A DNA stretch of 64,000 nucleotides. It comes from Neocallimastix lanati (nom. inval.) (lineage: Eukaryota; Neocallimastigomycota; Neocallimastigomycetes; Neocallimastigales; Neocallimastigaceae). Below, in pieces: positions 4,563-55,735 of the stretch; position 1 is the first letter of the stretch, and each line of letters begins with the position of its first letter. The DNA lies in NCBI GenBank assembly GCA_016946835.1, contig JACVTC010000020.1, forward strand, positions 912,501 through 976,500, written 5' to 3'. Under the pieces are notes generated by a model, which worked only from the letters and a program-made list of their open reading frames with translations, was not told where the DNA came from and did no database searches. Position numbers and translations under genes: made by a program.

Positions 4563-5431
4563 GATAGTAAAAAATAATACAAAAAAAAAAAAAATTCTAT
4601 TTTTTATTTTTTATTTTTAAGTTTTATTTTAATAATTTTTATATTATTTAATAAATAAAAATAGAGTATAATAGAATGAATTTTTTATATTTGAATTTTA
4701 ATAAAATAATAATTTATTATACAGTTTTTAGATATTAAAAGTATTTGATAAAAAATTTTTATTACATAAAAATATTTATATATAAAATTTCAATAAATTC
4801 TTTCTCTTGAGATGAAATTCTACATTTGAATAAATTTTACATAAAAGAATCATAGCAAATACAATTATATAAAAGTATATAAATTTAAAATAAAAAAAAA
4901 AAACTTTTTTACCCTAAATTTTACCTTTCATATTACTGATTTTAAACCTCTCATAGAAAGTTCAATTTTAAAAATAACTTTACAATTTACTATTATTCTT
5001 TATGAAAATAATTTTATAATTAATAATAAATTAACATAGATATAATCCTTTATTTATTTATAATTTCAGTTCATTATTTTTATAACAATTTTTCATTTTT
5101 TATTAATTCCCACCTTTAATATAAATTTAAGGATAAATAATAATATAACAATAATGAAAAAACTTTCATTTAAGCAAAAATAATAATAATAATAAATTTT
5201 TATTCACATCTTTCTAATTTTGAATTTCTTTAATTTTATTATATTTAAAAATTTTCAAATTAAATGTAATTTAAAATTACTAATTAATTACATAATGTTT
5301 TTTATTTTTTTACAACTATGATAAAATTTTATCATGGTAATTAATATTCAATAATTACATTTTATTTTTACCTACTAAATAAATTAATACTTTCAAATAA
5401 TTTATAGTTTTTTTCAATTCATTTATTTTTC
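4487..5431. other. AT-rich intergenic region upstream of the hairpin cluster
   Basis: No coding signal. It holds poly(A) 4498-4532, (AAT)n to about 4562, and a perfect 18-bp palindrome at 5318-5335 (ATGATAAAATTTTATCAT) about 100 bases before the first hairpin of the cluster. Whether the palindrome is a regulatory site is unknown. Confidence 0.5.
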
Positions 5432-5529
5432 AACACTGATAACTGCTACTATCGATATTCTAATAAAATAATTTTACTAAACTATAGCAATTATTTATTT
5501 AGAATATAAGATAGTGCATTATCAGAGTT
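5432..5529. ncRNA. miRNA-precursor-like hairpin, copy 1 of 4
   Basis: A 98-base imperfect hairpin. The 5' arm 5432-5462 contains CTGATAACTGCTACTATC and the 3' arm 5500-5529 contains GATAGTGCATTATCAG. From the base they pair as AAC/GTT, an A.A mismatch, 7 pairs, a bulged C, 3 pairs, a bulged T, 6 pairs, a small asymmetric internal loop, then TATTCTA/TAGAATA and a further AT-rich stem closed by a loop near 5476-5490. Arm sequence and bulges are repeated in copies 2-4 while the apical part varies. The strand cannot be decided from sequence because the reverse complement folds equally well. Confidence 0.6.
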
Positions 5530-5538
5530 TATATTTTT

Positions 5539-5636
5539 AACACTGATAACTGCTACTATCGATAATCTAATAAAATAATTTCACTTATTTAATGAAATTA
5601 CTTATTTAGATTATAAGATAGTGCATTATCAGAGTT
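5539..5636. ncRNA. miRNA-precursor-like hairpin, copy 2 of 4
   Basis: A 98-base hairpin starting 9 bases after copy 1, with identical arm cores (5' arm 5539-5569, 3' arm 5607-5636). Above the conserved duplex, TATTCTA/TAGAATA of copy 1 has become TAATCTA/TAGATTA, a compensated pair change that keeps the stem. The apical stem here closes with TTTCA/TGAAA, which copy 1 lacks, so structure is kept while sequence drifts. Confidence 0.6.
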
Positions 5637-5645
5637 TTTTTTTTG

Positions 5646-5741
5646 AACACTGATAACTGCTACTATCGATATTCTATTTCAGTAAATTCAAAAAATAGAA
5701 ATTTACTATTTTAGAATATTAGATAGTGCATTATCAGAGTT
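5646..5741. ncRNA. miRNA-precursor-like hairpin, copy 3 of 4
   Basis: A 96-base hairpin, again 9 bases after the previous copy. Arms 5646-5676 and 5712-5741 have the same invariant cores and bulge pattern. The apical region is quite different in sequence from copies 1 and 2 but still pairs (AGTAAATT with AATTTACT around a short loop), with one internal loop. Confidence 0.6.
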
Positions 5742-5781
5742 CATTTTTGATTTATTTTACTTTCAGATACTTTTTATCCAA

Positions 5782-5880
5782 AACACTGATAACTGCTACT
5801 ATCGATAATCAAAAGAAATTTTTCTTATTAAACTTTAATATCTAATTCTTTCGACTATAAGATAGTGCATTATCAGAGTT
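5782..5880. ncRNA. miRNA-precursor-like hairpin, copy 4 of 4
   Basis: A 99-base hairpin separated from copy 3 by 40 bases. The arms 5782-5810 and 5853-5880 keep the invariant cores and the bulges. The apical stem has diverged most, with A.C oppositions, but AAAGAA/TTCTTT-type pairing remains. Confidence 0.58.
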
Positions 5881-11295
<5,415 letters not shown>

Positions 11296-25295: not shown

Positions 25296-26717
25296 TTATA
25301 AAATATTATTTAAATTAGTTAAACATTCAAACCACAATTTAGTAAGATCACTTCTATCATATTTAATATTAATTAACTTGGCTTCTTTATTTTTGTATTT
25401 TTCAATTAAGATATTAATTTCATCAGTTTTTGTTTTTGTTTTTTTTTTCATTCTCCAAATTCCTTTTATTTTCATTTGGTAATCATAATATGATAAATGT
25501 TCCTGTTCTTTTAATTTATTTATTAATTCATAAAAATTTGGTTTCATTGGAAATAGTTTATTTAAAGAATTATTGAGTGATTCTGAAGCATTATTGGTTA
25601 TATGTTCAATATTATTATAATAATTCCAACTTTTCATATCGTAACCAATTAAATATGTTTCATAAAAATATTCTAAAAATTTTAAAAATTGACAAGAATT
25701 TTTTTCAATGGATTTAGTTTTAATTAATGAAAAAATATCCATTATGTATTCAGGGTTGATAAATGGTAAGTTTGAAATTCCTTTGTAATAATTAAATATT
25801 TTTTCATCATCGTTCACTTCATTACGGCACAATTCATTTTTTTTAATTTCTAATAAATTTTTATAATGCCAAATACAGTATTTAATATTTATATTAGGAA
25901 ATATTTTTTTAACTGCTTTGGATATGCCTTTTTCAAAATCGCAATGTACATTTTTTGGTTCAGTTATAATATTATTATTAGAATTTTGTTTTAATTTATT
26001 GAATAACATTTTATATGTTTTTTGCTTTTTATTTCTTAATATTGCATAAGAAGTAGTATAAAAACTATTCAATTCTTTAACGTAAGTTCTAGTAATAAAC
26101 ACTTGTTGACTAAATTTAGGTGCGATATAAAAAGTACCATCCACAAATATATCATTATTATATTTCTTAAATAATTTTGCTTGAAAAGGGGATTGAAAAA
26201 TTACTAAATCAGAATTTTTGAATATCATAAAATCTTCATTTCGTTCAGTTTTATAATATTCAGATTCATTAGGAATTTCATTAAAAGTTGTTACATTGGA
26301 TGGTAGTTTTTTATTAATACTTCTTAATATTAGAGTTTTAACTGAAATATATTCTGGACACGGATATATAAATCCCATTTCTTTAGAAATTTCATTATAT
26401 AGTCTTTTTCGTTTTATATCAAAAGGATTTGAATGTTTTTTAATTTCATCTTTAATTTTATGTTTCATTACAGATAGGGATACACTATATTCGTTTCCAG
26501 GATGATTATGTAAACTCTCATATTTTAAGATTTCTTTCTCATTATTTAAAATAATAAAAGATTTACATTTATTATTTTTTTTATATTCGGTACATTTATA
26601 AACTTTTGAATTATCTTTCCTTGAATGTGAAAAATTAAATTTATATTGTTTATTAATAATGATTTGTTCTTCTCCTTTATTAGACTCACTTATATAAATA
26701 GTTATGTTTTCTTCCAT
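25296..26717 (-). CDS. MULE transposase with FLYWCH zinc finger, 473 aa
   Basis: The N-terminal third has a FLYWCH-type zinc finger (about residues 25-75, with Cys42, Cys51, His70 and His72), expected to bind element DNA. The catalytic core follows with the MULE pattern: Asp193 in FVDGTF, Asp260 in CDFEKG, the CIWH motif at 281-284, and Glu379 in NNASESLNNS. This is the DDE catalytic set with the usual Cys-x2-His between the second and third acidic residues. The frame is intact in one exon, and codon use is as AT-rich as the surrounding DNA. Length is on the short side for MULEs but nothing essential looks missing. It is the only protein gene between the element's terminal repeats. Confidence 0.92.
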   Translation of the reverse strand: MEENITIYISESNKGEEQIIINKQYKFNFSHSRKDNSKVYKCTEYKKNNKCKSFIILNNEKEILKYESLHNHPGNEYSVSLSVMKHKIKDEIKKHSNPFDIKRKRLYNEISKEMGFIYPCPEYISVKTLILRSINKKLPSNVTTFNEIPNESEYYKTERNEDFMIFKNSDLVIFQSPFQAKLFKKYNNDIFVDGTFYIAPKFSQQVFITRTYVKELNSFYTTSYAILRNKKQKTYKMLFNKLKQNSNNNIITEPKNVHCDFEKGISKAVKKIFPNINIKYCIWHYKNLLEIKKNELCRNEVNDDEKIFNYYKGISNLPFINPEYIMDIFSLIKTKSIEKNSCQFLKFLEYFYETYLIGYDMKSWNYYNNIEHITNNASESLNNSLNKLFPMKPNFYELINKLKEQEHLSYYDYQMKIKGIWRMKKKTKTKTDEINILIEKYKNKEAKLINIKYDRSDLTKLWFECLTNLNNIL

Positions 26718-54260: not shown

Positions 54261-55735
54261 AAAATTATTTATTATTAATTTTTAATTTATTATGATATTA
54301 AAAATATAAATTATACCATTAATATATATATGTAAATGTATAAATGTGTTAATTTTCATATTTTTCATTTTTAATTCTTTAACAATAATATAAAAAAAGA
54401 ATCAATAAATATTAATGAAATTTCAATTTTTTTTTTTTTTAAAAAAAATTATTTAAAACTAATATAAAACTAAAAAATCAATAAATATTAACAACATTAT
54501 TATTTAACTATGAATTTTTAATATTCATAAGAATTTTGAGATTATTTACAATATAACCAAATTATAAAAATAATAATTAATAAAAAAAAAATTATTCATT
54601 ATTACAATAATTTTTTTATTACTATTAAAAGTTTATAATGAAATAGAATTAACTTATATATAATAAAATTCTAATGAAAAATAATAAATTATTAAAGTTA
54701 ATTCTATTTAATTTATTATTTTTCATAGAATTTTAAAATTATATATAATATAAACAAATTATATAAATAATAATTAAAAAAAAAAAAAATGAATCCATAT
54801 ATTATAAATATAATATTGACATTTTAAGTGAACTTTTTTTTCTTCAGGAAAAGATTGATATATTTGTTAAGCATATTATTATCCAAGAAATCTTTTTATT
54901 CTAAAAAGTGAAAAAATTTCATAACTTAATATTTATATTTCATATATAATTATTTTTATATTTTATTTATGATAAATACTATTTTTGTATATTATAAAAG
55001 TAATATTTCAATTTTTACAATAAATCAATATATGAAAATTTTTTTGATTTATATTAAAAATAAATAAAATTAAAGAAATCGGAAATTTTTGAAAATAAAA
55101 TTTCAGAAATAATAAATAATAAATTTTAAAAATTCAAATGTTTTCTATTTTAACATTTATATATTTAAATAATGAATGGAATAAATTTTCATTTCTATAA
55201 AATTTTTATTTATAAAAATTAGCAATTCTCTTAAAATTTAAGTATATAAAATATTTTTATTAATACAAAAATAAAATAAATAAAAAATATATATATATAT
55301 AAAACATTTTCTATAATATATTTATTTTTTATTTTTTATTTTTTTTTTACTAATATTAATTCATTGCTAATTTTTTTAAATGCAACCAATGTTTAACCTT
55401 TAAGTATTTATAATTAGCTTTTCAGTTACACAACAAATACATAATTTATTAATTAGATAGAGTTCGTGTAACATTTAACTTTTTTTATTCTATAATATTG
55501 ACTAGTATGGAAGATAAACAGTTTAAATTTTTTTTTTATTCTATTTTTTTTTTTAAACGAAATAATAAAAAAAAAAAATAAATAATAAAATAGAATAAAA
55601 TATAAAGAATATAAAAAATATAAAGAAAAAAAAAAATAAAAAAATAAACTTAAAAACATAAAATACATAATAAAATATATTACTTTTATTTTTAATTGGT
55701 ATTTCTTTTATTATTTTTTTTATAATATAAAAGTA
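54261..55735. other. AT-rich region with inverted and direct duplications
   Basis: 54524-54580 and 54721-54778 are diverged direct copies (AATTTT, then ACAATATAACCAAATTATA-like). 54641-54655 / 54695-54709 and 54665-54690 / 54710-54734 are two interlocked inverted repeats. 54861-54891 repeats the segment at 37834-37864. No gene. Confidence 0.5.

Follow-up and report, generated by a model that had tools for sequence, protein, structure and literature searches.

The window analyzed here, a 64,000-nucleotide stretch of a 1.74 Mb contig of the fungus Neocallimastix lanati (genome searched: 199 Mb in 762 contigs), contains genes for a pyruvate formate-lyase and for a 982-residue ankyrin protein that is 78% identical to a protein of Piromyces finnis, with two unnamed environmental proteins being closer still (79–81%). 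A MULE transposase with a FLYWCH zinc finger is encoded on the minus strand at 25296–26717, and a hairpin of nearly pure A/T (−29.2 kcal/mol, z −6.9) is found at 54641–54760. A cluster of four tandem hairpins (5427–5884) with a period of 107 bases lies in DNA of 11–20% GC, 0.95 kb past the 3′ end of the gene for the ankyrin protein. The surroundings had been described in an earlier note as featureless and AT-rich, and indeed the longest open reading frame between 4487 and about 11.4 kb is 76 residues long; the cluster is intergenic, save for a spurious 48-residue frame touching the fourth hairpin.

The four hairpins are 96–99 nt long and separated by spacers of 9, 9, and 40 nt, at the coordinates first described, and each runs AAC..GTT. 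They are given here as read on the minus strand. Hairpin 1 (5432–5529, 98 nt) has its 5p arm at 5505–5529, its 3p arm at 5432–5457, and its apical part at 5458–5504, and folds with −34.3 kcal/mol (z −7.3) vs. −31.4 kcal/mol on the plus strand. The corresponding positions in hairpin 2 (5539–5636, 98 nt) are 5612–5636, 5539–5564, and 5565–5611, with −38.7 vs. −31.5 kcal/mol (z −10.5 on the minus strand). Hairpin 3 (5646–5741, 96 nt; arms at 5717–5741 and 5646–5671, apical part at 5672–5716), which carries the single variable arm base, folds with −37.5 vs. −37.1 kcal/mol (z −8.4), and hairpin 4 (5782–5880, 99 nt; arms at 5856–5880 and 5782–5807, apical part at 5808–5855), where the difference between the strands is clearest, with −33.3 vs. 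−23.7 kcal/mol (z −5.8). All are single stems of about 40 pairs, interrupted in or beside the arm duplex by a mismatch, two bulges of one base each, and a small asymmetric loop; they thus show the defined hairpin and low-mismatch duplex without secondary stems that is asked of miRNA loci in PMC11014262 and PMC9757828.

The arms are strikingly uniform. The 26-nt 5′ arm of the plus strand, AACACTGATAACTGCTACTATCGATA, and 21 nt of its 3′ arm, AGATAGTGCATTATCAGAGTT, are identical in all four hairpins, as had been claimed, and when the 3′ arm is taken more widely, 24 of its 25 columns show no variation in the four-hairpin alignment. Each arm core has four exact occurrences, and in shuffled versions of the window the 5′ core had a mean of 0.00 matches with up to three mismatches and the 3′ core a mean of 0.29 (one shuffle got to four). 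The helical imperfections had also been described as shared throughout, which in plus-strand folds is true of the mismatch and the two bulges (4/4), but not of the asymmetric loop, which is found in three hairpins only, since hairpin 3 folds slightly differently. Conservation ends at the stem base, immediately outside of which the bases vary among the copies. It also fades towards the tips: 50 of 51 arm columns are invariant compared to 18 of 48 apical columns in this alignment of paralogues from one genome, with pairwise differences of 3/306 and 103/276, respectively, although a Fisher value for this contrast is flattering, because the arm boundaries were set with the alignment already seen. 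As the middles have diverged by 37% between near-identical flanks, recent tandem duplication alone is not a sufficient cause of the pattern.

The apical halves have nonetheless kept their ability to pair, and each pairs better with its own partner than with that of another hairpin. When tips were swapped between hairpins, the mean energy on the minus strand weakened from −25.7 kcal/mol for the native pairs to −16.1 kcal/mol for the chimeras, none of which (0/12) reached the worst native value; on the plus strand, the means were −20.9 and −14.7 kcal/mol, and 8/12 chimeras reached it. The native assignment of tips was the best of all 24 permutations on both strands. Shuffling the apical parts only gave folds as good as the native ones in 10, 0, 15, and 23 of 1000 cases for hairpins 1–4 on the minus strand, and in 3, 1, 15, and 259 on the plus strand; as the hairpins are paralogues, neither shuffles nor chimeras are independent replicates. 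The compensated change noted earlier, from TATTCTA/TAGAATA to TAATCTA/TAGATTA, is present, and the column covariation is weak with four rows: five pairs are changed on both sides, a number matched by 32/500 shuffles, the covariation score is matched by 44/500, and RNAalifold retains one pair changed on both sides. Template switching during replication is reported to create and maintain hairpin stems and to produce compensatory changes without selection on RNA (PMC8794818), and pairing by itself is therefore no proof of such selection.

All four hairpins are more stable than 200/200 dinucleotide shuffles on both strands, with z from −5.4 to −8.7 on the plus strand and from −5.8 to −10.5 on the minus strand. 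When the entire 64 kb was folded in 110-nt windows (step 10), the hairpins took the four lowest energies on the minus strand. The lowest plus-strand window lies within the gene for pyruvate formate-lyase, with hairpins 3, 2, and 1 second, fourth, and fifth in rank, and hairpin 4 is not among the best 25. A background scan covered 19 loci of the same genome, not counting those overlapping the cluster or each other (103,033 bases with overlaps included). Among its 9,836 window-strand entries, seven had energies of −33 kcal/mol or lower, three of them with a GC content above 0.25. The other four entries all represent a single C40 hairpin, which was counted on each strand in each of two loci that overlap. 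This hairpin (C40:37414–37534, or L020:9415–9535), which is unrelated to the cluster, reaches −47.5 kcal/mol on the minus strand (z −9.2), and a DNA search of the genome found no second copy of it; its arm has four further sites at up to three mismatches vs. one for the control. It may be a second precursor or, by resemblance, a mariner-like palindrome. Because an unrelated single-copy long hairpin of this kind exists, a stable hairpin alone says little, and what is outstanding about the present locus is the four-fold array with kept arms, not a single-copy long hairpin as such.

Of the two strands, the minus is the probable RNA strand, favored by us about threefold over the plus. It gives the better fold for all four hairpins, albeit by merely 0.4 kcal/mol for hairpin 3, and for the region 5400–5920 as a whole (−148.0 vs. 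−126.2 kcal/mol). Moreover, when an alignment scoring both alike was used, plus-strand A·C positions outnumbered G·T positions at all five gap costs tried, by 6 to 2 at one of them and by 8 to 2 at the others, an excess expected if G–U pairs are tolerated in a minus-strand RNA. This bias is suggestive only (one-sided 0.055, two-sided 0.11), and the plus strand also yields a workable 22/22-nt duplex.

Enzymes that could process such hairpins are predicted from the genome, where six RNase III domains are distributed over three loci with two apiece. The C161 protein finds its best matches among solved Dicers (Dicer homolog 1, followed by Dicer-like 3 and animal-type Dicers), with Drosha entries being far weaker, and by sequence it is clearly a predicted Dicer; it supplies the genome-encoded Dicer that is looked for when milRNAs are annotated. 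Two Dicer-like loci exist in addition, at L020:3414–6756 (C40) and L021:3112–9556 (C599). The C40 frame, about 2.7 kb from which the long C40 hairpin lies on the upstream side, has six homologues among 8000 candidates scored, one identical and two being named Piromyces proteins. The C599 protein has a Dicer-like 3 as its top match, and a long stretch of Ser/Asp-rich repeats lies in the frame upstream of the RNase III domains. A Pfam scan of nine frames (E ≤ 0.1) detected neither a helicase nor a PAZ domain, and the Dicer dimerization domain gave a sub-cut-off match only; upstream exons may lie outside the scan. For the phylum, the examination of four other genomes reported in PMC5796279 describes Dicer, Argonaute, and functional siRNA silencing, but no clear RdRP. 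Among the literature matches listed, we recognized no other paper dealing with RNA silencing in this group of fungi, which does not imply absence from print.

Taken together, we think it fairly likely that the cluster is a tandem set of four paralogous miRNA-like (milRNA) precursors, most likely on the minus strand and within one noncoding RNA. The earlier note had favored a miRNA-type reading without considering the minus strand, now the probable one. That reading is supported in that the basal arms rather than the loop are kept, the tips pair within their own hairpin, no second genomic copy was found, and proteins with paired RNase III domains are encoded, but not in that no near-perfect target was found. 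The conserved block of about 25 nt per arm at the stem base agrees with one 22–24-nt Dicer duplex bearing 2-nt 3′ ends, and tips that are free to vary agree with a precursor. By this model, the four hairpins would be transcribed from the minus strand, probably as a single noncoding transcript, and an RNase III/Dicer enzyme would cut each of them close to the stem base. A duplex of about 22–24 nt would thereby be released, with the 5p strand within AACUCUGAUAAUGCACUAUCUUAUA and the 3p strand within UAUCGAUAGUAGCAGUUAUCAGUGUU, and would be loaded into Argonaute for gene silencing. We infer all of these steps, i.e., transcription, dicing, loading, and target repression, from the features described above. 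Other identities were considered and rejected. No Rfam family matched at its gathering score, and of three weak chance-level matches (E 2.3–4.4), two were to one miRNA family. No tRNA was found at the cluster. A viral origin was dismissed with 12 weak matches in phage records (E 0.1–0.5) and none in viral contigs, and a prokaryotic one with the 16-nt 3′ core occurring in 106 prokaryote contig stretches (one match each in the best 80 of 106) vs. about 120 by chance (hand estimate). With no dispersed copies found in the genome either, and with the intergenic position, the hairpins show no sign of stemming from another structured RNA, a coding sequence, or a transposon, an origin that PMC11014262 and PMC9757828 require to be excluded.

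Targets were sought for both arms across the genome. Beyond the cluster itself, no match to the 22-nt 5′ arm was found at up to three mismatches (control: none), and the 20-nt 3′ arm has eight extra sites (control: three); relative to the longest local frame, four of the eight are sense and four antisense. Allowing one mismatch, the 16-nt 3′ core has three further sites vs. none in the control and about two by chance (hand estimate); one of them, on C257, is also among the eight. With no near-perfect target found in the genome for either arm, there is no support for plant-style targeting of host genes. The missing target for a silencing guide is one of the points in favor of a noncoding RNA in which the four repeated hairpins act as protein-binding modules of a scaffold, like the repeats of roX and Xist, instead of being Dicer substrates. 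Repeated hairpins with identical bulges would suit a binding platform, and the evidence for pairing at the RNA level is equally compatible with it. However, protein sites on RNA usually require a conserved loop or a short motif, whereas here both arms of about 25 nt are kept and the loops are free, and we consider this explanation unlikely.

A further possibility is that the array acts as DNA, an inverted repeat (e.g., DNA-binding sites) having been duplicated in tandem, with template switching, and not selection on RNA, keeping its stems paired. The arrangement of the units in tandem with their regular period and the reported ability of template switching to create and maintain stems (PMC8794818) both speak for this. 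On the other hand, template switching should mend the arm mismatch and the bulges, yet these are kept in 4/4 hairpins, and the plus-strand excess of A·C over G·T is what tolerated minus-strand G–U pairs would leave. A centromere or origin element would moreover be expected on many contigs, but a 107-nt DNA search of the genome, which skipped very common words, returned the four cluster copies only, and at up to two mismatches the 18-nt 5′ core has these four and one match more in the 199 Mb, vs. five for the reversed control. Finding no other copy argues against a dispersed palindrome, and a centromere or origin element is likewise unlikely; we regard the DNA-level explanation as distinctly improbable. 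These searches and that with the 22-nt 5′ arm led us to reject a dispersed transposable palindrome, for which the earlier note had expected many dispersed copies with target-site duplications.

It is more doubtful still that the locus is a source of hairpin siRNAs, in which the long hairpins would be cut at more than one position and release mixed products instead of a single defined mature RNA, a mobile element being a conceivable target. With some 40 pairs, the stems could give nearly two successive products, and in well-supported fungal hairpin loci the top RNA reportedly accounts for a smaller share of the reads than in plants and animals (PMC9757828). Against this, conservation is limited to the basal 25 nt or so, singling out one duplex, and no matching element is seen at up to three mismatches over the 5′ arm, with the 3′ arm having only its eight weak sites vs. 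three. The idea of a remnant of a mobile MITE-like element, suggested by the imperfect 26-nt terminal inverted repeats, a transposon trait, and by the MULE-type transposase 20 kb off, is largely refuted and hardly credible, as dispersed copies were not found in the genome, the array is head-to-tail, and reading of the flanks alone showed no target-site duplication.

To the earlier note, conserved miRNA clusters of this kind were unfamiliar in fungi, but as to kind the locus is not new, since hairpin RNAs (milRNAs) have been described in many of them (PMC9757828). Cordyceps militaris milR22 from the same source is alike in being an intergenic hairpin with conservation centered on the duplex region in a fungal host with Dicer. 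The fungal loci described there differ from the present one, which consists of four tandem paralogous precursors with near-identical arms, all predicted from sequence, and their inter-arm distance is usually under 20 nt in well-supported cases, compared to about 45–48 nt here. The main text of PMC9757828 makes no mention of Neocallimastig-, chytrid-, or Mucoromyc- names, and among the literature matches listed, none describes tandem hairpins with near-identical arms from Neocallimastigomycota. The miRNAs of Amoebozoa also come from hairpins with arms of about 22 nt and free tips (PMC11014262). Like these, and grouped within one short stretch as here, are the clustered miRNAs of animals, and the cluster differs from both groups in having no relatives in Rfam. 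Animal clusters are exemplified by miR-17~92, and the stems here, at about 40 pairs, are longer than those of typical animal pre-miRNAs. The double-hairpin elements of chytrid and Allomyces mitochondria, which are GC-rich and mobile, share conserved stems, variable loops, and basal fungal hosts with the cluster, which unlike them is a single locus on a 1.74 Mb contig with no second copy found.

A bolder version of the milRNA precursor model, which we put forward tentatively and hold to be rather doubtful, is that the cluster arose independently as an animal-like, polycistronic set of miRNAs in a phylum reported to be without RdRP. One guide would be produced from four tandem minus-strand precursors, cut by one of the two extra paired-RNase-III loci, and hairpins instead of RdRP products would be a main input to silencing. 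In an early-diverging phylum of this kind, such a visibly constrained tandem family would be a clean system for studying how often miRNAs arose, and would let one ask whether loss of RdRP favors miRNAs.
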